Shown: positions 754 to 11,806 of the stretch, piece by piece
Layout: the number at the start of each line of letters is the position of its first letter
Position numbering within the stretch: the stretch's first letter is position 1
Assembly: GCF_014805525.1 (NCBI RefSeq)
Contig: NZ_JACFSZ010000006.1
Coordinates: 1-64,000, forward strand
DNA length: 64,000 nucleotides
Direction: 5' to 3'
Source: Rhabdothermincola sediminis
GTDB lineage: Bacteria; Actinomycetota; Acidimicrobiia; Acidimicrobiales; Acidimicrobilacustridaceae
The notes under the pieces: model-generated
What the model saw: the letters and a program-made list of their open reading frames with translations, nothing else
Databases searched by the model: none
Told to the model about the DNA's origin: nothing
Program-made: the position numbers and the translations under genes

Positions 754-1254
754 TCAGCGACGCTTGCCGTTGTGCCGACGGAACCGCACCAGGAGCGCGG
801 CGCCCAAGGAGGTGAGGCTGAGGGCGATGATGAGAGGGTTGCGTAGTGCGGCTCCGGCGGTGACGCCGATCCCGCCGAGCACGACCGCTGTGCCGTAGGC
901 GCAGCACAGCACCACAAGTCCCGCGGCTCCGCCGCTGCCGAGCAGCCCGGCGATCCACGGCCATCGTGGTCGGTCGGAGAGCCACTCGTCGTTCCAGTTC
1001 GAGTCACGTGCGGGGTGGCCGACTTCGTCGAGTTCTTGACGGAACCGGTCGATCGGCGTTGAGGGGTCGCGGGAGAACCGAACCGATCCGGTTCGCCAAT
1101 CAGCGGTCGCGTTCGTCCCGCCCGCGTTGGTGATGGCCCGTTCGACGGTGGTCGCGCATCGGGCGCATGTCATCGCTTCGATGCCGGTGATCGTGGTCGG
1201 CATCGAGGCGGTGTCCGCTTGGAGCCGGGTGGGTGATGGGTCGGGGTCAGACAT
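754..1254 (-). CDS. HMA (MerP-like) domain fused to MerT/MerF-like membrane region
   Basis: 166 aa. An N-terminal heavy-metal-associated domain carries the MTCARC motif (Cys30, Cys33). A C-terminal part follows with two hydrophobic segments, the first containing adjacent Cys117-Cys118 (LCCAYG), as in the first helix of MerT/MerF mercury transporters. No signal peptide precedes the HMA domain, unlike periplasmic MerP. Inferred role: capture of Hg(II) and passage across the membrane, with donor and channel cysteines in one chain. It is the last gene of the mercury operon, and its ATG overlaps the end of merB by 8 bases. The closest described analogues are separate MerP plus MerT/MerF, so the fusion is notable. 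Confidence 0.75.
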   Translation of the reverse strand: MSDPDPSPTRLQADTASMPTTITGIEAMTCARCATTVERAITNAGGTNATADWRTGSVRFSRDPSTPIDRFRQELDEVGHPARDSNWNDEWLSDRPRWPWIAGLLGSGGAAGLVVLCCAYGTAVVLGGIGVTAGAALRNPLIIALSLTSLGAALLVRFRRHNGKRR

Positions 1255-1807
1255 GGCCGGCTCGGGTCTGTGCGACGAGATCTGCGGCGAGGGTCACGGC
1301 GTCACCGATCGAGAGCGCCATGGTCACCGCGCCGGGGGTGGCGTCGGCCCACCGTTGGTAGGCGCCGTCGGAGGTAAATGCGTTGATGTAGGGGCAGGCC
1401 GTGTCGTAGATGCTGCCGTTGCCGTAGCGAGCGACGCCCAGCGACATGACCGCGGTCGGAGGATCGGCGGTGACCGTGTCGCGGTCGATGGTGACATGGA
1501 TGGGTTGTTCGTCGCGGGGGCTGGTCGAGTGGATGATGGCGGGCCGGTTTCGGATGGCGGGGAGCATGAGCGAGTCGAGCACGCAGTGGGTGTGGATGAT
1601 CTGGCCTTCGATGACGGTTTGATGCCGTGAGGTCGACCCGCAGCACAGCAACGACTCGACGGTGTCGGTCGAGGCGAGCCGGGTGAGCAGCCCGCCGAGC
1701 TGGTCGGCGAGATGGCCGAGGGTGGCGGGCGGGTCGTCGAGGTTGTGGAGTTCGGCGAGGCGCGTGCCGAGCTCGGACGGGACGGGCTTTGATCGGTAGT
1801 CGGTCAT
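1247..1807 (-). CDS. merB: Organomercurial lyase MerB
   Basis: 186 aa. Alkylmercury lyase cleaves the C-Hg bond of organomercurials and hands Hg(II) to MerA. The sequence HCVLDSLMLPA carries Cys75 and Asp78, and TACPYINAF carries Cys138. The 63-residue spacing between the two cysteines equals that of the catalytic Cys96 and Cys159 of the well-studied R831b enzyme, with the Asp three residues after the first Cys in both. There is also an adjacent Cys55-Cys56 pair. I chose the ATG at 1805-1807 because it overlaps the stop of the preceding CcdA-like gene as ATGA; the frame stays open further upstream, but that part lies across the better-supported ccdA gene. Confidence 0.88.
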   Translation of the reverse strand: MTDYRSKPVPSELGTRLAELHNLDDPPATLGHLADQLGGLLTRLASTDTVESLLCCGSTSRHQTVIEGQIIHTHCVLDSLMLPAIRNRPAIIHSTSPRDEQPIHVTIDRDTVTADPPTAVMSLGVARYGNGSIYDTACPYINAFTSDGAYQRWADATPGAVTMALSIGDAVTLAADLVAQTRAGHV

Positions 1808-2751
1808 GTCGGGTCCTCGGATCGGGTGGTGGGCGAGGTTGCCATCAGAGGTGGCGTGCAACAGTCGACGTCGACAGCAGCCGTTGTTGGTTCGGGTGTG
1901 TCGTGGCGGTCTCGCCGCCGCAGCCGGCTGGCTGCCATGGTGGCCGCCGCGCCGACGACGAGTGCTGCTCCGACGAACGCGGCGAGGCCGGTGTTGGCCG
2001 AAAGCCACGCCGAGATGGTGCTCGACGCGCCTTCGACCGGCGCGGCGAGGGGGTTGCGGGCGTCGGAGCCCAGAAGGGATGGGAGCCAGTAGGCGATCAG
2101 ATAGAGCCCGGAGAGGGCGAGAACAGCGCCACCGAGGCGGGTGGCGATCGGCAGGACCCGCCGGACCTTGGCGGTCAGGCCCTGTTTGGCGAACGCGGCG
2201 GACAGGGCGAGCGCCATGAGCAGTGTCGCCGCCCCCGCGGCGTAGGCGGCGAACACCGCGACGAGCTGCGCGAGGTTGTCGGTGGCGAGAGCCTGGGCGA
2301 TGACTGAGAGCAGCACTGCGAGGGTGCATGACAGCGACGCGAACGCGTAGGCGGCACCGAACGCAACCATCCTCGAGTAGCTGCGCTGGTGGGTGTCGAC
2401 CTGGACGCGTTGCGCGGCCGCCAGCCCGATGTGGCGTCCACCGATCATCGCGGCGCCCATGATCGTGAATGCGACGCCCAGCACAACCGCAACCCACGGT
2501 ACGACGGAGAGCAGCTGGCGCAGTCCCGCGGTCACGGCGAGCCCGACGATCGTGAACACGGCACCGAACCCGGCGCTGACCGCGGCCCCGACGCGCACAC
2601 CCTGGGCGGCGCGGTTGTACGGCGACAACGCTTCCGCTGCGGTGTCGGCGCCGCCGATGTAGAACCCCAAGAACGCGGGGAGCATCGCGAAGCCGCACGG
2701 ATTGACCGTTGCGAGCAGCCCCGCGCCGTACGCGAACACCACGAGGTTCAC
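1804..2751 (-). CDS. CcdA/DsbD-type membrane thiol-redox transporter
   Basis: 315 aa with about six membrane segments. CcdA-family proteins carry reducing equivalents across the membrane with two cysteines in helices; here these are Cys19 (NPCGFAMLPA) and Cys142 (SLSCTLAVLL). A soluble C-terminal tail, rich in basic and polar residues, carries an adjacent Cys297-Cys298 pair that plain CcdA proteins lack and that could bind Hg(II). The GTG start at 2749-2751 overlaps the previous stop (GTGA). Sitting between two thioredoxin-fold genes and merB, it probably passes electrons to those partners rather than serving cytochrome c maturation; that role is inferred. Confidence 0.8.
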   Translation of the reverse strand: MNLVVFAYGAGLLATVNPCGFAMLPAFLGFYIGGADTAAEALSPYNRAAQGVRVGAAVSAGFGAVFTIVGLAVTAGLRQLLSVVPWVAVVLGVAFTIMGAAMIGGRHIGLAAAQRVQVDTHQRSYSRMVAFGAAYAFASLSCTLAVLLSVIAQALATDNLAQLVAVFAAYAAGAATLLMALALSAAFAKQGLTAKVRRVLPIATRLGGAVLALSGLYLIAYWLPSLLGSDARNPLAAPVEGASSTISAWLSANTGLAAFVGAALVVGAAATMAASRLRRRDRHDTPEPTTAAVDVDCCTPPLMATSPTTRSEDPT

Positions 2752-3407
2752 GACAGCCCGACCTTTTCGAGCGCGGTACGGAGCGTGGCTTCGGAGGTGG
2801 GCACACCGTCGCGGAACACGATCGTGCCGGTGGCGTCGATGATGACGGTCGTGTCGAGCGACGCCAGCTCGTAGGTGCGGGCGACGGTCGCGTCGCTGTC
2901 GATGACGAACGGGTAGCGAGGCTCGCCGATCAGATCGACAAAGCCTGCCAACGTCTCGGGGGTATCGTTGGGGTCGGCGTCGATGACCACGACCGAGAGG
3001 CGGTCGCCGAAGCTGCGCTCGATGCGGTCCCAGGCCTGGGCCTCGGGGACACACGTCTGGCACCACGCCGCGCTGAAGAACAGGGCTGTTGGCTTGCCGG
3101 CCGCGGGGATACGCAGCGCCTCCCCGGACACCGCCGACACGGTCAGCACCGGGGGTGTGTCACCGACCGAGGCTCCCGTCGCCGCGCCGGCGTCCGTCCG
3201 CGAGCCCGGAGCTACCTCGCCGGTTCGGGAGACGAACACCGCGACGAGCAGCACGACCACGACCGCCGCGCCGGTCGCCCACCACCGTCGCCGAGCGAGC
3301 CACCCGCGGCACCGCTGGCTCACGGAAGGTATCGGGCCGGCCCGTTGACTTCCCCTCACGCTCGCGGATCGTGCAGGGTGGGCTGGGGATCGGGGGCGGG
3401 TGCTCAT
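2748..3407 (-). CDS. Membrane-anchored thioredoxin-fold protein (TlpA/ResA-like), second copy
   Basis: 219 aa. A basic N-terminus and one membrane helix (about residues 43-60) tether a TlpA/AhpC-type thioredoxin domain outside the cell membrane. The redox motif is CQTC (Cys116, Cys119) in the context FFSAAWCQTC. The ATG at 3405-3407 overlaps the stop of the previous gene (ATGA), and its own stop overlaps the ccdA start. It is likely reduced by the adjacent CcdA-like protein; its target may be the mercury-transport cysteines or oxidized surface proteins. No cytochrome genes are nearby to support a cytochrome role. Confidence 0.78.
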   Translation of the reverse strand: MSTRPRSPAHPARSASVRGSQRAGPIPSVSQRCRGWLARRRWWATGAAVVVVLLVAVFVSRTGEVAPGSRTDAGAATGASVGDTPPVLTVSAVSGEALRIPAAGKPTALFFSAAWCQTCVPEAQAWDRIERSFGDRLSVVVIDADPNDTPETLAGFVDLIGEPRYPFVIDSDATVARTYELASLDTTVIIDATGTIVFRDGVPTSEATLRTALEKVGLS

Positions 3408-4054
3408 GTCGCGGCCTGTTGCAACCAGCCGGTGAGGGTCGCCTGGTCGGTCGCGTTGGCGTCCCCGCGCGCGACGATGATGCCGTCGCTGTCGATGATG
3501 ACGACCTCGGACAACGTGGCGGGCTCGAAGGCCTGCGCCATGGTGGTGTTGGTGTCGAGCACCCACCGAAACGGCGGCGATCCGACACTCTGGGCGAATC
3601 CCGTGAGGGATTCGGCGCTGTCGGCAGGGTCATAGTCGACGGCAACGACCTCCGCGTTGTCGGCCCCGACCGTGTCCAACGCGACAGCGAGCTTGCGCGC
3701 CCCTGCTTCGCAACTCGCGCACGCGTTGGTCGCCAAGAAGTAGACCGCGACCGCCTCTCCCCGCAGCGCCGACAGCTCGACCGGGGCGCCGGTGAGATCG
3801 GCCACCACGAATGCCGGCGCCGGCTCTCCCTCCCCCGCCGCCGGGCCCCGTGTCGCAGGAGCCATCTCGGTGCTCGCGACGGTCCCGGCCCGTGCCGGCG
3901 GCGCAACCACTTGTGATTCCACTGGGCGGCGCTGCCAGACCAAGGCGGTGCCGACAAGGAACACGACGACGAACCCAGCCGGCCAGACCCACCGAAGTCC
4001 CCGACGCGGACGCACAGCCGCGCCGGGGGCCTGCGCCCCGTCACGCTCGTTCAT
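3404..4054 (-). CDS. Membrane-anchored thioredoxin-fold protein, first copy
   Basis: 216 aa. A single membrane helix near residues 23-40, a Pro/Ala-rich linker, then a thioredoxin-like domain with CASC (Cys112, Cys115) in the context FLATNACASC. This differs from the usual W-C-x-x-C of thioredoxins, as the Trp is replaced. It is related to the next gene but clearly diverged, so the pair may have separate roles (for example reductase and metal carrier). The start at 4052-4054 was chosen for the ATGA overlap with the small upstream membrane gene; longer frames would run across that gene. Confidence 0.75.
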   Translation of the reverse strand: MNERDGAQAPGAAVRPRRGLRWVWPAGFVVVFLVGTALVWQRRPVESQVVAPPARAGTVASTEMAPATRGPAAGEGEPAPAFVVADLTGAPVELSALRGEAVAVYFLATNACASCEAGARKLAVALDTVGADNAEVVAVDYDPADSAESLTGFAQSVGSPPFRWVLDTNTTMAQAFEPATLSEVVIIDSDGIIVARGDANATDQATLTGWLQQAAT

Positions 4055-4329
4055 GGGTGAGGCCGCGGCTCGCTCGCACGCCGGACGGCCGACCGCTGCT
4101 GGGTGGGATCGCAGCAGTCCTCGCCGTCGCGGGCGCGGGTTCGTGCCCGTCCGAACGCGAACACGGCGAGCGCGACGGCACCGATGACCACCACGCTGCT
4201 CCCGAACACCACCCCGGTGACCGCGAGCGAGGTCGCGCCGAGCAGCAGCGGGATTCCACAGCACACCGCCATCGCCACGACGGCCATGACACCCATCTCT
4301 TTGCCCGGATCGCTCTGCGGTCTTGTCAT
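4051..4329 (-). CDS. Small MerF-like mercury membrane protein
   Basis: 92 aa with two membrane segments. An adjacent Cys23-Cys24 pair sits in the first (AVCCGIPLLLG), as in MerF and MerT, and a second pair, Cys72-Cys73 (GEDCCDPTQQ), is in the short C-terminal tail. This is the layout expected of a minimal Hg(II) uptake protein passing the ion from helix 1 to a cytosolic pair. A good ribosome binding site, AAGGAG at 4336-4341, lies six bases before the ATG; this is the only gene of the operon that starts with its own spacer. The family assignment rests on the cysteine pattern and topology. Confidence 0.7.
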   Translation of the reverse strand: MTRPQSDPGKEMGVMAVVAMAVCCGIPLLLGATSLAVTGVVFGSSVVVIGAVALAVFAFGRARTRARDGEDCCDPTQQRSAVRRASEPRPHP

Positions 4330-4438
4330 CGTCGGCTCCTTCGGTTCATGTGGTTCGACTGGCCGTCGCGGGCACGGGGGCGCGCCGCGGGCCGGTAGGC
4401 CCACGCAACCCAGCTCGGGATACGGGGCCGGGGTGGTG

Positions 4439-5815
4439 TCATGCGCAGCACGACAGCTTCCGGACGTCCTGGGTGTAGGACTGCGCCGCCAAGCGCAGCG
4501 CTTCGCCCATCGTCAGGTACGGCGTCCAGGTCGATGCCAGATCGGTGACCGTCATGCCCTGGGTGATTGCGTAGACCCCTGCGAGGATGACGTCACCGGC
4601 GCCGGCAGCGAGGAGATGGACACCCAGGATGCGGCCCGAGCCGGCCTCGGCCACCAACTTCACCGCGCCCCGGGTGTCTTGGGACACCAGCGCACGGGGC
4701 ACCCGATCCAACTCAAGCACCCGGCTGTCGGTCTGAAATCCCGACGCTTGGGCTTGTGCTTCGGTGAGGCCAGCCGCGGCGAGCTGGGGGTTCGTGAAGA
4801 TCACATCGGGCAGGCCGGTCAAATCAACTCGCTGCTCGCCTCGGGTGAGCGCGTTCTCGGCCGCGGCGGCTCCCTGCGCGGACGCCACGTAGACGAACTG
4901 GGGACCGCCCGTGACGTCACCCGCGGCGTAGACGACCGGGTTCGTGGAACGCTGCTGGTTGTCGGTCTTGATGAACCCCGCAGCGTCGGTCTCGACTCCC
5001 GCGACCGCCAGGTCCAGCGCAGCGGTGCGGGGCCGTCGCCCCGTCGCGACCAACAGGTGCGATCCGGTGATCGTCGTCCCGGCTGCGGTCGTGACCCGGA
5101 CTCCGCTGCCGTCGCGGTCGACGGTGGTGGCTCGCTCGGCGATGAGGGTGAGCCCTTCGTCGGTGAGCGCCTCGGCGAGGCGTTGCGCGAGCTCTGGCTC
5201 GGCGTGGGGTGCGACGCGTCCGATGATGGTGACCTTGGCGCCGAGGTGCGCGAAGAGCTGTCCCTGTTCGAGACCAACGAAACCGCCGCCCACGATGACC
5301 AAGTGCTCGGGTACCTCGTTGAGTTCCATCGCCGAGGTCGAGGTCAACACATCGACGTCGCCGATGCCGACGAGATCGGGGAACGCAGGCTCCGCGCCGG
5401 TAGCGATCACGAACGCCTTGGCTGTCAAGGTGCGCCCGTCGACGTCGATCGTGCGCTCGTCAGTGAAACGGGCTTCGCCAACCACGATCTCGAAGCCGTA
5501 GTCCGCCGCCAGGTTGACGTACTTGCCCTGGCGGAGCTCGCCGACCAAGTGCCGTTTCTGGGCTTGGATCGCCGCGAGATCGACCCCGCCGCTGGTGGCC
5601 GGCACTCCGGCGAATCGGGGGTGGCGGGCATGCCACACTGCGTCCGCCGCGGCCAGCAGCGCCTTGGACGGGACACACCCCACATTCACGCAGGTACCCC
5701 CGACGGTTGCCCGTTCGACGATGGCCACGCTCGCACCCAGATCATGGGCCCGGATCGCGGCCGCGAAGGCGGCGCCGCCCGAGCCGACCGCAATGAGATC
5801 GAACCGTTCAGCCAT
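4439..5815 (-). CDS. merA: Mercuric reductase MerA (without N-terminal metal domain)
   Basis: 458 aa. This FAD/NADPH flavoenzyme reduces Hg(II) to volatile Hg(0). Visible: the N-terminal FAD site (VGSGGAAFAA), the redox pair GGTCVNVGC (Cys42, Cys47), the NADPH site near VIVGGGFVGLE, the conserved Tyr433 in PYLTMGEALRL and the C-terminal LSCCA (Cys456, Cys457) that receives Hg(II). The NmerA/HMA domain found in many MerA proteins is absent; the separate HMA fusion at 754-1254 may replace it. The start at 5813-5815 overlaps the regulator stop (TGATG). The 109-bp gap after it holds only the ribosome binding site of the next gene. Confidence 0.96.
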   Translation of the reverse strand: MAERFDLIAVGSGGAAFAAAIRAHDLGASVAIVERATVGGTCVNVGCVPSKALLAAADAVWHARHPRFAGVPATSGGVDLAAIQAQKRHLVGELRQGKYVNLAADYGFEIVVGEARFTDERTIDVDGRTLTAKAFVIATGAEPAFPDLVGIGDVDVLTSTSAMELNEVPEHLVIVGGGFVGLEQGQLFAHLGAKVTIIGRVAPHAEPELAQRLAEALTDEGLTLIAERATTVDRDGSGVRVTTAAGTTITGSHLLVATGRRPRTAALDLAVAGVETDAAGFIKTDNQQRSTNPVVYAAGDVTGGPQFVYVASAQGAAAAENALTRGEQRVDLTGLPDVIFTNPQLAAAGLTEAQAQASGFQTDSRVLELDRVPRALVSQDTRGAVKLVAEAGSGRILGVHLLAAGAGDVILAGVYAITQGMTVTDLASTWTPYLTMGEALRLAAQSYTQDVRKLSCCA

Positions 5816-6168
5816 CACACCCACACCGGTCCGATGCGAGTACACGACGAAAGGTGCTCCTCGCGCCGCGCAGCGGCGACCGACGCGTTCGCGACCAACG
5901 AGGCGACGTCGCCGTCCACGAGGGAGTAGCGCACCGTGCGTCCCTCCGGCTCGGCCTCCACGAACTCGCAGTACCGCAGGCACGCCAGATGATTCGACAA
6001 CCGGCTCCGCGGGATACCGGTCGCCTCGACCAACTCGGCCACCGTCAACGAACCCCCCTCCAACGTCTGGAGGATCGTGAGGCGGGTCGGATCACCCAGA
6101 ACCCGAAAGAACCGCGCCGTCGCCCGGACAAGAGAATCCGAACCCAAAGCTGTCGATGCGAGAACCAT
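5815..6168 (-). CDS. ArsR/SmtB-family metalloregulator, CmtR-like (probable mercury sensor)
   Basis: 117 aa winged-helix repressor. The DNA-recognition helix region SRLSNHLACLRYC carries Cys63 and Cys67, and a third cysteine, Cys109, lies near the C-terminus. This matches the Cys57/Cys61/Cys102 site of the mycobacterial Cd/Pb sensor CmtR in both spacing and context. The gene heads the mercury operon and overlaps merA, so Hg(II) is the likely inducer here. Some actinobacterial mer operons are known to use ArsR-type rather than MerR-type control. Cd or Pb response remains possible. A dyad 12 bp upstream of its start is the probable operator. Confidence 0.88.
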   Translation of the reverse strand: MVLASTALGSDSLVRATARFFRVLGDPTRLTILQTLEGGSLTVAELVEATGIPRSRLSNHLACLRYCEFVEAEPEGRTVRYSLVDGDVASLVANASVAAARREEHLSSCTRIGPVWV

Positions 6169-6228: not shown

Positions 6229-8955
6229 CTACAGGCCGATTCCGAGGCCGTCGTCGACAGCGGGCCGCTCGCGCTGTTGCAAGCGGTCGAGTCGTGCGGT
6301 GATATCCGCCACGTCATCTGCGAGGGTGCGGTCGTCGCTCGGGTCGGGCAGCTCGGCGAGGAGATCGTCGGCCAGCGAGTTGTGCGCGCGCGACCCGGCG
6401 GGTTCGGGGAGCTCGGCGAGCAGCGCGTCCCGGCCATGCCCGACCGGGGTCCCGTCGGGTTCGGGAAGACTGCCCAACAGCTCCGAGGCGAGGTGCTGGG
6501 ACCGGTCCCGGGAGAGTTCACGTTCGGCGTGTTCCAACAACAGATCCCGGCCATCCACTCGCTGCGCTCGCTGCGGGTTGGGGGCGAGGACGTTCCACAC
6601 GTCCTCGTCGGGGGTGAGCATGTAGAGGCGGTTCTCGACTCGGCCGCGTGACAGCGCGGTGTAGGCGGCCTGGCGATCGAGATCACCGTCACCGCCGAGG
6701 GTGAAGATCCGATCGGCGGTGGCGCCCTGGGTCTTGTAGTTCGTGCGCGCGTAGCCGTAGTCGAGGAAGCCGGCCTCGAGCCGGTCGGTGGGCATGGTGC
6801 GTTCCTCGTTCACCCGTTCACACTTGAACGTGACGGTCTTGCGGCTCTCATTGATGCGGGTGACGGTGCCGACATCGCCGTTGAGGATGTCGAGGTCCCA
6901 GTGGTTGCGGCCAACGGCGAGGACCTGGTCGCCGACGGCGAACTCGCGGCCAGCCACCTGGATGCGCTTGTCGATGTGCAGCTCGTGGTTCCCGAACCGC
7001 CCCGCCGCGTCGAGCAGTGCACGCGCGCGGTCGTTGAGGTCGGCGACATCAGCGCGTCTCGTGGCGATCATGACCTTGTCGGTCCCCGGTGCGTTGAACC
7101 AGTCGTCGACCAACTTCTGTCGGAGGGCATCGGCGTTGTCGGCGGTGATGATGCGGCCGTTGGTCCCGTAGGCGGCGACCGCCTCGGAGATGCGCCCGTT
7201 GCGGAGGTCGTCGAGCGCGCCGATCTCCCACTCGTGGATCTGGCGGCGGTTCTCGACCAGCGCCGTCGACGGCGCATAGATCGATATCGCCCGGAACGAC
7301 CCGCCCGCGTCGATCTCGGGCAACTGCGCGGTGTCACCGGCCAACACCAACTTCGCCCCCGCTTCGGTGGTGTGCCGTGAGATGGCGTCGAGGGTTCGTG
7401 TGCCGACCATGCCGCTCTCGTCGATCACCACGACGCAGCCCGCGTCGAGGACCAGGCGGCCTTCGTCGAGCTGGTTGAGCAGCCGGGTGATGGTCATTGC
7501 GGGGATCCCAGACCCCGCCGACAGCTCCGCGGCCGCGCGTGCGGAGAGCGCGGCGCCGAACACCGAGTAGCCCGACGCTTCCCAGCCTTCGCGGGCGGCG
7601 TCGAACGTGAAGGTCTTCCCGGTCCCCGCGGCGCCGACGGCGACGTCGATGCCGGCACCCGACAGGGTGAGGTGTCGGACCATGGCTGCCTGCTCGTCGG
7701 AGATCGACGGGCGTGAGGCGATCGCTGCCTCGACCGCGTCTGGTTGTGCGATGGCGGCCCCGGCGTCGCGTTGGCTGCGGGCGCGTTCGACGACGCGGTT
7801 CTCGGTCAACAACAGCTCGATGGTCGTCCATCTCGGTTCGCCGGCGACGTCGCCGACCTCGACGACGCGACGCTCGGCGATGAACCCGTCGGCGAGGTCC
7901 TCGATGGCGGTCACGTCCGCGCCGTCGGGCATCCGCTCGGCGACCGCCCGCACCACATCACGACGCCCGAACGTCGACGCATGCTCCGTCACCCCGGTCG
8001 CCGACGCGAGGTCATCGAACAGCGAGCCGACCGACCACAGCTGGGGCTCCCGGGCCACGCCCCGGCCGAGGAGCTCGGCGACTTCGACGGGACCGAACCC
8101 CAGCTCGTCAGCACGCTGGGCCCAGTCGGCTCGCAGCGTGTTGGCGTCGACCTCGTAGACCTTCGCCCGGCGGGTGTCGAGCGCGGCGTTCTGCGCGGCC
8201 TTCGCCGAGTGCTCAGCGCGGGCTTCCATCGCGTCGAGAATCTCCGCCCGCCGCTGGGAGAACGCGTCGATGAGGTCTCTCGGGATGCCGGCGACATCCG
8301 CGTAGCCGTTGGTCACGGGCTGCCATTCGACGCCGAGGCGGCGGGTGAGCTCGGCCCGCAGCTGGGCTTGGTAGAGGAACCCGGCGGTCTTGGCGTGGTG
8401 GAACATCGGCGGCGAGTGCAGCGCCCCCCAACGCCCATCGGGCATGTGGGTCATGTTGGCGATGAGCACGTGGGTGTGCAGCGTCGGATCCCCCGCCCGC
8501 GACGTCTGGTGCCGGAACCCGGCGGCCACGAACCCCTCGCCGGGGACCTGGTGCTGGACCCCGTCGGTCCGGCGACGCGACAGGCAGACCTGGCGCTCGA
8601 GGTAGCCGATCGCCGCGTCGACGGCGGCCTCGTGCGCGGCGACCACCTCACCGGTGACCGTGCCGGCCTCACCCAGCCCGTAGAGCAGCGAGATCGACTT
8701 CGGGGCCCGGAACGTGAAGTCCAGCCCCGGCAGCTTCGCCCGCGTCAACCGCTCGTCGCTTCCGGGCCTTCGTCCCTCGAGGACCGCAGTGAGGTCGGCT
8801 TCGTCGACCAGGCCATCGAGGCCCAACAGGCCGGAGCCCGCGCCCAACCATCGGCCCGGCGCTTCACCCCGACCGGTGTAGTAGTCCTCCACGCCCTTGG
8901 CGATCGACAGGTAGTAGGTCTGCTGACCGGCGGCCATCAATCCGATGTTCAACAT
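6229..8955 (-). CDS. MobF-family conjugative relaxase (TrwC/TraI-like) with helicase domain
   Basis: 908 aa. The N-terminal relaxase domain carries paired tyrosines (Tyr14-Tyr15 and Tyr25-Tyr26, in DYYTGRGEAPGRW) and the three-histidine metal site (His149, His160, His162 in DPTLHTHVLIAN). A RecD-like helicase follows, with a Walker A GAAGTGKT near residue 440 and a Walker B VVIDESGMVG near 508. The enzyme nicks oriT and pilots the strand in conjugation. The ATG at 8955 has GGAGG about 9 bases upstream. No coupling protein or mating-pore gene accompanies it, so the element would be mobilized by a helper. The C-terminus is short compared with large TraI proteins. Confidence 0.92.
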   Translation of the reverse strand: MLNIGLMAAGQQTYYLSIAKGVEDYYTGRGEAPGRWLGAGSGLLGLDGLVDEADLTAVLEGRRPGSDERLTRAKLPGLDFTFRAPKSISLLYGLGEAGTVTGEVVAAHEAAVDAAIGYLERQVCLSRRRTDGVQHQVPGEGFVAAGFRHQTSRAGDPTLHTHVLIANMTHMPDGRWGALHSPPMFHHAKTAGFLYQAQLRAELTRRLGVEWQPVTNGYADVAGIPRDLIDAFSQRRAEILDAMEARAEHSAKAAQNAALDTRRAKVYEVDANTLRADWAQRADELGFGPVEVAELLGRGVAREPQLWSVGSLFDDLASATGVTEHASTFGRRDVVRAVAERMPDGADVTAIEDLADGFIAERRVVEVGDVAGEPRWTTIELLLTENRVVERARSQRDAGAAIAQPDAVEAAIASRPSISDEQAAMVRHLTLSGAGIDVAVGAAGTGKTFTFDAAREGWEASGYSVFGAALSARAAAELSAGSGIPAMTITRLLNQLDEGRLVLDAGCVVVIDESGMVGTRTLDAISRHTTEAGAKLVLAGDTAQLPEIDAGGSFRAISIYAPSTALVENRRQIHEWEIGALDDLRNGRISEAVAAYGTNGRIITADNADALRQKLVDDWFNAPGTDKVMIATRRADVADLNDRARALLDAAGRFGNHELHIDKRIQVAGREFAVGDQVLAVGRNHWDLDILNGDVGTVTRINESRKTVTFKCERVNEERTMPTDRLEAGFLDYGYARTNYKTQGATADRIFTLGGDGDLDRQAAYTALSRGRVENRLYMLTPDEDVWNVLAPNPQRAQRVDGRDLLLEHAERELSRDRSQHLASELLGSLPEPDGTPVGHGRDALLAELPEPAGSRAHNSLADDLLAELPDPSDDRTLADDVADITARLDRLQQRERPAVDDGLGIGL

Positions 8956-9126
8956 GCGCGCGCACCTCCACTTCCCTTACCCACCCCTAAGCCGCCGCGC
9001 GTCCCCCGATTTCGCGTGGTCGTTCGTCACACCACCCCGACCGATCGGCCGCGAGTCACTGGTCAGGTCACGACTCGGGTCATTGCTCGCGCCTCAGCAC
9101 GCTGACGCAGTGACTTCATCGCGCAT

Positions 9127-9393
9127 CCCGGTCCCGACTTCGGTCCCGCAATCGGTCCCGGGTTCGATCCCGGCCCGTGTCGCATCCTCCCGGTCACGGT
9201 CCCGTCCCGGTTCACGGCGCGGGTTCGCCGGCAACCCGACCCCAACCCGGAAGGTCGCGGTGACCGGAGGGCGGGTGCCCAACCGGAGCGAAGCGGCGGG
9301 CGGGAGCATCGTGCGGTTAGCGGACGGGACGGCACCAGCCGACACGACCCGCTCCCGGTCGCGTTCCCGTTCGGGTTCCCGGTCCGGTCCCGG
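9127..9393 (+). repeat. Clusters of degenerate GGTCCCG repeats
   Basis: GGTCCCG or one-base variants (GGTCACG, GTTCCCG) recur at about 9130, 9142, 9154, 9192 and 9198, and again at about 9356-9390, several on the same face at 12-bp spacing. Reading the region as coding gives only low-complexity Arg/Gly/Ser protein. The repeats lie upstream of the relaxase gene and could be relaxase or accessory-protein sites, or simply compositional drift. Confidence 0.35.
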
Positions 9394-9480
9394 CGAACAC
9401 CCTGCTCGACCGCGAGCCAGTCTGTGACCCTATGCAGGACGCGTTGTCAAGAGGCGTTCGCGAAGCAGCACGCTGGCTGG

Positions 9481-9506
9481 TGCGCGCGTGCGCGCGTGCG
9501 CGCGCG
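9481..9506. other. Alternating purine-pyrimidine tract (Z-DNA-prone)
   Basis: Twenty-six bases of strictly alternating T/C and G (TGCGCGCG-TGCGCGCG-TGCGCGCGCG). Such (CG/TG)n runs readily form left-handed DNA under negative supercoiling. It lies 92 bp downstream of the IS110 transposase stop, outside any gene. Confidence 0.7.
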
Positions 9507-9597
9507 GTGAGGCCCTCGACGAGGGTCGTTTCGCTGGATGGGCGCGAATCGCGGGCGCTGTGTTGGCCTGCGCGCCCCGCGATGGAGACGGGATGGG

Positions 9598-11055
9598 TCA
9601 GGAGTGCGGGCGGTTCGGCCTGCTCGACGCGTCGGCGGGGGTCTTGACGCGGGGCCCGTTGGGTCCCGACGATGACGGCTGGGGAAGGTCGCCTCGTGTG
9701 TCACGCCGTCCGGCGTGGTGAGGGGCCTTCCCCTTCGCTTTGGTCTTGCGGGACCGGCGCCGCCGGCGGATCTCTTCGGGGACCGTGTAGCGCTCAGCGA
9801 TGATCGCCTTGGCCTCGGCAGGGTCGACGGGCCGGCCGTCGATGTCGCGGATCACGTAGGGCTCACCGCGGGCCATCGTGACCCACCCCCGCTCGGCTAG
9901 GCGGGTGGCGACAACGCACAGCGCCTTGGTGTGATGGGCGCCCCGCTCGACCATCTGGGTGTAGTAGACCGCGGCGAGCTGGGGGTCGAGACGCCGTGCG
10001 GTGTTGGCCGACAGCACGAGCTGGTGGCGCAGCCGGCCGGGCCCGGCCTTGGACATCGGCTGGCCTTTGCGGTCGGTGTCACCGGTCTCGGACGCCCGCG
10101 GGGCCAGGCCGGTGAAGGACTTGAACGCGGCCGCGTCGCGGAACCGGCCCGGGCGTCCCATCGACGCCACCAGCAGCGGACCGCCGATCGCGGCGACACC
10201 GGGCAGCGAACGGGCCAGACCGTCGGGATCCGCGGCCTTGTAGGCGTCCTCGCGGGCCACGGCGTGGCCCTTGTGCTCAGCCCAGATCGCTCGCAGCAGC
10301 CGGCACTCCGTGGCGATCTCCGCCGCCAACGCCTCAAACGGCACCGCCGGGTCATCCCCATAGAGGTCCAGGGCATCCTCGGCCGCTTGGCGCCATGAGG
10401 CCGCATGATCAGCGCCTTTCTGACCCGACGACGCCTTGGCGATCACCTCGACCAGACGCCTGTGCGGGACCTTGGCCAGCCGGCGCGGGTCGCCCCAACG
10501 CTCCAGGACCGCGACGTCGCAACGGGACACCTCCCCGCCGATCACGTCATCGATGGAGGGGTAGAGCTGGCGGGCCAGCTCCCGCAGCCGGATCTTGCGT
10601 TGGGTCTGGGCTTCGGTCAGCCGCTCACACGCCCGCACCCGCCGGTCCAGGGCGGCGAGCTCGCCGGTGGGCAACTCGAGGGGCCGCACCCCGCCGGGGT
10701 CCACGATCGGCAGACGGGCCAAGGTCTCCGCGTCGATCGAGTTCGTCTTCGCGTTCGCCGACAAGAACCGCCGCAGCGCGGCCGCCTTCGCGGAGGACAC
10801 CCGATACACGAGATGGCCGCGGCGCACGAAGAACACCGCGACGGGCAACCACGCCACCCCCGTCGGTTCCACCACCACCTCCAGGCGAGTGCCCTCCGGC
10901 GCCCCGGCGAGCGCGGCGGCCTCGACCGCTTCCAACGACTCCCGGATCGGGCGACAGCGGCGCCGGGCCACCACCGTGCCCTCCGCGTCGGTGACCACCA
11001 CGGTGTGCGCCGACGCGATCCCCAAGTCGACTCCCACAAGACGACGATCCGACAT
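9598..11055 (-). CDS. IS110-family transposase (bridge-type recombinase)
   Basis: 485 aa. An N-terminal RuvC-like DEDD domain (Asp10 in VGVDLG, Glu63 in VVEPTG, Asp108 in NSIDAETLARL) is followed by the C-terminal Transposase_20 domain (SLPGVAAIGGPLLVASMG, then FKSFTGLAPRASETGD). The latter has the conserved Ser in the QPMSKAGPGRLRHQL segment that attacks DNA in this family. The ATG at 11053-11055 has AAGGAG at 11062-11067. The C-terminal ~60 residues are a Lys/Arg/Pro-rich tail longer than in most relatives. No frameshift is seen, so it may be active. It was probably inserted into the island secondarily, between relaxase and recombinase. Confidence 0.92.
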   Translation of the reverse strand: MSDRRLVGVDLGIASAHTVVVTDAEGTVVARRRCRPIRESLEAVEAAALAGAPEGTRLEVVVEPTGVAWLPVAVFFVRRGHLVYRVSSAKAAALRRFLSANAKTNSIDAETLARLPIVDPGGVRPLELPTGELAALDRRVRACERLTEAQTQRKIRLRELARQLYPSIDDVIGGEVSRCDVAVLERWGDPRRLAKVPHRRLVEVIAKASSGQKGADHAASWRQAAEDALDLYGDDPAVPFEALAAEIATECRLLRAIWAEHKGHAVAREDAYKAADPDGLARSLPGVAAIGGPLLVASMGRPGRFRDAAAFKSFTGLAPRASETGDTDRKGQPMSKAGPGRLRHQLVLSANTARRLDPQLAAVYYTQMVERGAHHTKALCVVATRLAERGWVTMARGEPYVIRDIDGRPVDPAEAKAIIAERYTVPEEIRRRRRSRKTKAKGKAPHHAGRRDTRGDLPQPSSSGPNGPRVKTPADASSRPNRPHS

Positions 11056-11806
11056 GAGCTTCTCCTTCCGATCGAACAACGAGGATGTGTTCCTCGGCTC
11101 GACCGGGGGGCATGCCCACCACGCCGACCACGGCCCCACGAGCGGTCGCACGAGAGCCCGTCACGGCCCCCACACATGTCGTTCAACCGGACCACGACCT
11201 CAACGGGTCGGCCCACGAACCTATCCGGGTCCTCCGTGGCCGGACCGGAAGGGAGGCACTCAGACTGCCGAGGCGTCCGCAGCCGCGGCCCTCAGTGACC
11301 TTCGTAATCGCCTCCCCCCGAACCAGCCGGGGAGCACTCATGCAACCCGAGGCCATCGACGACGATCAACCGCCGAGGCACGCTTACATGTGACCTCTGC
11401 TTTGGGGGTGTCCCTGTAGAGGTCGTGCGTCTCGGGATGAGGCGGTGTCGGAAGCAGGTGTCGACGCGCGGAGCGAGAGCAGGTGGCTGCTGGCCGAGGA
11501 CGTGACCGGGAGGGCGCGCGATCAGGCCCGTGAACGCGTGAACGCCACGTGATCGCACCAGGATGAGGGCGTGCGCCTCTCCGCGTGCGTGCGATTGGTG
11601 TGCCCGATCGCAGCTGCGAGGCCGACTCGGTGTTCCGGTCGGCGGGCAGACCGGGACCCACCCCGACATGGATTTCTCGAGATTTCTTCGGATCGGGAAC
11701 TCGAACGGGAGCGATACCGGGAGTCCCGTTCGCGATGGTCGACCTCGTGAGTCGTCCTCTCCCCCGGCCGGGATGCCATCCGCACCGTGTGATGGCCCCT
11801 GCCCCC
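11056..11806. other. Gene-free region upstream of IS110 transposase; candidate bridge-RNA segment
   Basis: About 750 bp without a supportable gene; open frames here have the Arg/Pro/Ser-rich look of out-of-frame GC-rich DNA. IS110-family elements carry a noncoding end upstream of the transposase that in studied members encodes the bridge RNA, so the first few hundred bases on the minus strand are the place to look. Visible possible stems: CGAGGA...TCCTCG at about 11090-11106, and GACCTCT...AGAGGTC at 11392-11424. The true element end is not recognised. Confidence 0.35.

Follow-up and report, generated by a model that had tools for sequence, protein, structure and literature searches.

Here, the window denotes the whole 64,000-nucleotide stretch of Rhabdothermincola sediminis DNA that was analysed (contig NZ_JACFSZ010000006.1, positions 1 to 64,000). 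On its minus strand, from position 6168 to 754, we found a single tightly packed mer operon of eight genes (Table 1). These had been described in an initial annotation as eight overlapping genes, and neighbours do overlap by a few bases, but a gap of about 109 bp separates merA from the gene for the small carrier. The operon includes a CcdA homologue and two proteins with a thioredoxin fold (TRX), and thus a full thiol-reducing set inside a mer operon, as had been proposed; all of the genes were confirmed. Upstream of arsR, we found no sigma-70-type promoter, and the inverted repeats there are only very short ones. Next to the operon lie a TrwC-type relaxase with a helicase domain and then an IS110 transposase, and beyond these are the chromosomal genes uvrA, uvrB, uvrC, pgk, and polA, on which account the operon is probably situated on an integrated mobile island.

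Table 1. The mercury resistance operon of the window and the adjoining mobile-element genes.
Feature	Length (aa)	Position in window	Strand	Evidence
arsR/smtB-type mer regulator (first gene)	117	5815..6168	-	PF01022 52 bits; NF033788 81 bits
merA, mercuric reductase lacking an N-terminal HMA domain	458	4439..5815	-	TIGR02053 516 bits
Small two-segment membrane carrier	92	4051..4329	-	MerT/MerF-like by architecture
First membrane-anchored TRX protein (CASC)	216	3404..4054	-	PF00578 54.5 bits; PF08534 44 bits
Second membrane-anchored, TlpA/ResA-like protein (WCQTC)	219	2748..3407	-	PF00578 35 bits
CcdA homologue	315	1804..2751	-	DsbD_TM 23 bits; mer clade support 99
merB, organomercurial lyase	186	1247..1807	-	PF03243 92 bits
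HMA domain (TCARC) with two-helix membrane hairpin containing CC	166	754..1254	-	PF00403 21 bits
TrwC-type relaxase with helicase domain, then IS110 transposase		6229..11151		

The regulator is of an ArsR type that likewise adjoins merA in the loci L003, L006, and L007. As for MerA, its score above the TIGR02053 cut-off (454.45 bits), its GGTCVNVGC active site, and its LSCCA C-terminus identify it as a mercuric reductase, and a CC at this end is common to all relatives examined. MerB is well above the Pfam cut-off (27 bits for PF03243), though it stays below that of the NCBIfam MerB equivalog (70 bits vs 193). In an alignment with five other MerB proteins, the catalytic trio Cys96, Asp99, and Cys159 is kept as C75, D78, and C138, while most of the N-terminal helix-turn-helix-like domain is missing. 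We also noticed that the window MerB lacks a third conserved cysteine, which has position 117 in standard numbering. Elsewhere, the MerB C-termini of many actinobacteria carry CC or CxC (L003:171-821, L006:804-1445, L075, L083, L093, and others); this tail resembles those of MerA and the carriers and is possibly a hand-off feature. The cysteine pairs that the initial annotation had pointed out along the operon are real, these being the LSCCA end of MerA, the two CC pairs of the small carrier (first membrane segment and tail), the DVDCC tail of CcdA, the LLCC near the N-terminus of MerB, and the LCC in a membrane segment of the HMA fusion.

The small carrier had been called MerF-like, and this holds for its architecture but not for its family, as the 92-residue protein matched no Pfam or NCBIfam model of a Mer transporter (MerT, MerF, MerC, or MerE). 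The HMA fusion falls just under the cut-off of PF00403 and also below that of MerTP_fusion (19.5 bits for the latter), and its hairpin weakly resembles MerT-like carriers from mer loci elsewhere. Both TRX proteins score above the AhpC-TSA cut-off and have a CxxC motif (CASC and CQTC) together with a hydrophobic N-terminal segment; moreover, a CxxC is present in every TRX partner examined. With the ResA and StoA models, the second of the two stays below the cut-offs (about 40 bits), and its gene overlaps the start of ccdA.

As a single sequence, the window CcdA does not reach the Pfam DsbD_TM cut-off (23.0 vs 27.1 bits). A profile made from it and four relatives matches the solved CcdA structure 5vkv with an E-value of 4e-5, and the membrane cysteines C19 (in NPC) and C142 (in LSC), which are found in helices 1 and 4, are invariant in 29/29 CcdA sequences. 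The predicted structure (pLDDT 79) has 5vkv as its nearest fold with a probability of 0.97 but an E-value of 0.06, and this model, being of moderate quality, was relied on for the helix count only. By that count, a six-helix core is followed by a seventh membrane helix and then by the tail with the CC, which the charge distribution and the predicted helices (including the seventh) would place in the cytosol.

This tail of vicinal cysteines was seen on 32 distinct CcdA sequences, all 32 of them from mer contexts, and on 0/31 non-mer cores, though these counts are not independent of one another because the CC-tail label undergoes no more than about five changes across the CcdA tree. A CcdA that is mer-linked and yet lacks the tail was seen in seven of 39 rows of the clade described below, in L212-L214, and in all loci of family f26. 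The idea of the CC tail as a universal feature of mer CcdA was rejected accordingly, the further records indicating that it is limited to mer loci yet absent from some of them.

The initial annotation had suggested a singular system, a view that does not hold, as CcdA–TRX proved to be common in actinobacterial mer loci and is listed in part in a 2025 review. The table in this review gives CcdA- and TrxA-domain "mercury transporters" and a "mercury resistance operon ORF3" in Gordonia and Rhodococcus (PMC12195606). Of the CcdA-bearing plasmid records that we opened, ten of 13 have CcdA–TRX adjoining merA or merB, the hosts being Pseudonocardia, Pseudarthrobacter, Rhodococcus, Streptomyces, Mycobacterium, Nocardioides, and Mycolicibacterium. 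The same is true of most of the named genome loci, which come from dozens of genomes such as those of Corynebacterium, Nesterenkonia, Leifsonia, Geodermatophilus, and Amycolatopsis. The gene set that was sought in other actinobacteria is thus found there rather than being absent from related mer operons, and the set in the window is a variant of a widespread one. Such conservation with the mer operon is as expected if the set serves mercury handling outside the membrane. In the literature searched, with the original S. lividans and CHR28 papers outside its scope, we found mentions of the gene set but no functional test of these genes.

To gauge frequency, an even phylum sample of 396 Actinomycetota genomes was used, and this contained 18 assessable loci with a bona fide MerA. 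CcdA lies within 8 kb of MerA in eight of these, vs about 0.1% expected from the number of CcdA genes; a chance neighbourhood was rejected on this figure and on the existence of a mer-dedicated clade. The remaining ten loci have no CcdA nearby, as is likewise the case for the mer genes of pMAB23, and so resistance in general does not depend on the CcdA–TRX module. Two side observations concern plasmids. The locus L215, on pJCM15296 of Mycolicibacterium aubagnense, has no merA but has a CcdA-TlpA pair next to genes for ArsR, sulfocyanin, and DUF302, and the end of this CcdA is the same as in a mer-linked copy. On the Streptomyces plasmid with L006, a gene of the vitamin K epoxide reductase type (L006:6042-6677), a disulfide-forming family whose redox direction is opposite to that of CcdA, directly follows the mer-linked ccdA.

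For the descent of CcdA, we used a tree of 80 sequences with the tail columns left out. Here, the window CcdA falls inside a clade of 39 rows (SH-aLRT 99), all members of which are in mer loci, with five such loci meeting contig ends or having no close merA in the stretch. The housekeeping CcdA of the host is encoded on another contig (C4), where a thioredoxin-fold gene adjoins it, and it groups with Acidimicrobiales copies, apart from the window CcdA; a displacement of the host copy to a place next to mer was rejected on both points. Other mer-linked CcdA proteins lie outside the clade, namely those of family f26, of L079, L089, and L127, and of L092 and L180. As read from the tree, CcdA has thus been recruited to mer loci at least twice more beyond the clade, and this repeated recruitment is our strongest argument that CcdA–TRX serves mercury handling. 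Within f26, the loci L168 and L173 are independent mer loci with an HMA-bearing MerA, an ArsR, a TRX, and a shorter CcdA without the CC tail, and in L173 a possible small membrane protein with CPC adjoins the TRX.

Among the 38 loci of the clade, a TRX is next to CcdA in every one, and relatives of the window carrier, small and with CC, hold the same adjoining slot in 35/38. A stand-alone MerP was found in 0/38, and HMA domains in these loci are confined to the fusion in the window and the N-terminal domains of two MerA proteins. On these counts, it is TRX that occupies the slot of MerP. In the CcdA-bearing mer loci that we examined, a CcdA–thioredoxin pair stands in place of a stand-alone MerP, the textbook extracellular catcher of mercury.

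What we favour, if by a slight lean, is that the window carries an ArsR-regulated, broad-spectrum mercury operon of actinobacterial type in which a relay of thiols replaces MerT/MerP on the uptake side, with TRX taking the role of MerP and CcdA keeping TRX reduced. Outside the membrane, the CxxC dithiol of the anchored TRX proteins would bind or hand over Hg(II), or else strip it from blocked thiols, an action that would be the counterpart of MerP elsewhere. We infer that electrons run outward, from cytosolic thioredoxin over the two membrane cysteines of CcdA, so that both TRX and the exposed cysteines of the carrier would be kept reduced. Import of Hg(II) would fall to the small carrier together with the HMA-hairpin protein, after which the vicinal-cysteine tails of carrier, CcdA, and MerA in the cytosol might pass it on to the MerA active site, with MerB supplying further Hg(II) from organomercurials. 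If this were so, mercury uptake in these bacteria would require that the cell deliver reducing power across its membrane, and the detoxification of mercury and methylmercury would be linked to the redox state of the cell.

One feature sits poorly with a pure relay, namely the CC tail on CcdA, which is needless for a mere carrier of electrons and hints that CcdA itself may touch mercury. Together with TRX in the slot of MerP, the tail would speak for a direct handling of mercury no less than for the protection of thiols. Taken further, CcdA might be a conduit for the metal, such that Hg(II) captured by the CxxC of TRX moves to C19 and C142, crosses the membrane with an elevator movement, and leaves over the CC tail to MerA. 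A path of this kind explains the tail better than a relay of electrons does, and it is in line with the tail being limited to mer-locus CcdA and placed in the cytosol. The cytosolic partners are moreover alike in design, since all MerA proteins end in CC, most MerB proteins have CC or CxC at their end, and a CC tail is present on the majority of carriers. Such a path is also compatible with the movement of CcdA, which has been proposed as an elevator-type protein (PMC7329351), and some deposited annotations name CcdA-domain proteins as mercury transporters (PMC12195606). Against it, tail-less copies are common among mer-linked CcdA, a dedicated carrier is also present in nearly every locus, and the co-occurrence of the tail is phylogenetically clustered, with five changes on the tree. 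To our knowledge, no CcdA carries a metal ion, and a conduit of this sort is without precedent. We regard it as unlikely, if still deserving of some weight; were it true, CcdA would constitute a new type of metal transporter, in which ion transport is derived from an electron carrier.

The CcdA–TRX pair could instead be confined to repair, restoring extracytoplasmic protein thiols that mercury stress had blocked or oxidised, and having no part in uptake. This agrees with the chemistry generally performed by ResA/TlpA-type proteins and CcdA, as well as with the conservation of the CcdA cysteines even in the tail-less copies, but it leaves both the CC tail and the position of TRX in MerP's place beside the carrier unexplained, and we consider it improbable. 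It is conceivable too that a ccdA/resA pair for cytochrome c maturation travels with mer by chance, given the TrwC relaxase and the IS110 transposase on the island of the operon and the existence of non-mer plasmid loci with CcdA-TlpA. Speaking against this, the mer clade is monophyletic and recruitment took place on at least two further occasions, the carrier, TRX, CcdA, and MerB genes overlap one another, and the host has a separate CcdA locus, all of which makes a chance passenger very improbable indeed. The reading that we favour thus remains that of TRX acting as MerP and being kept reduced by CcdA.

In comparison with known systems, the canonical MerR/MerT/MerP/MerA operon shares with the window MerA, MerB, and membrane carriers with cysteine pairs, while the window has no MerR and no stand-alone MerP, and has TRX and CcdA in their stead. 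The CcdA-ResA/TlpA relay, as typified by the CcdA of 5vkv, has in common the two membrane cysteines, the six-helix core, and a CxxC partner; unlike it, the window CcdA has an added seventh helix, a tail with CC that is predicted to be cytosolic, and a mer context. Metal resistance is tied to thiol or disulfide chemistry in the mer operon of Thermus, which includes thiol-related genes, and in Scs-type copper tolerance, which involves a DsbD-like protein. The genes of these systems are different, however, and we know of none with a CcdA-TRX-merA cluster of the kind in the window.

Closer to the window is L068 from Geodermatophilus chilensis, whose CcdA is the nearest by tree path. With merB, two thioredoxin-fold genes, a CC carrier, and a CC-tailed CcdA, this locus offers the closest arrangement of tandem TRX genes, though its 8.4 kb contig has no close MerA and no HMA fusion was seen there. 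A further likeness is to the plasmid copy of Streptomyces longwoodensis (L006), which shares the ArsR regulator, merA, merB, the small CC carrier, TRX, and the CC-tailed CcdA, that is, the gene list of the Streptomyces type, all of which the window has. Its layout is merB–merA facing arsR–small CC protein–TRX–CcdA, and the mer genes of S. lividans have been described as divergent merAB and merRTP (PMC5312570). Since the S. longwoodensis copy of that layout has the set, the studied Streptomyces operons (S. lividans 1326 and CHR28) probably carry it as well, judging by the literature and the layout. On the basis of the S. longwoodensis and R. aetherivorans counterparts, ORFs II–IV of S. lividans may correspond to carrier, TRX, and CcdA. 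In contrast to the two divergent units and one TRX of the Streptomyces-type loci, particular to the window are the union of all genes in one operon, the tandem TRX genes, the HMA-hairpin fusion, and the shortened MerB.
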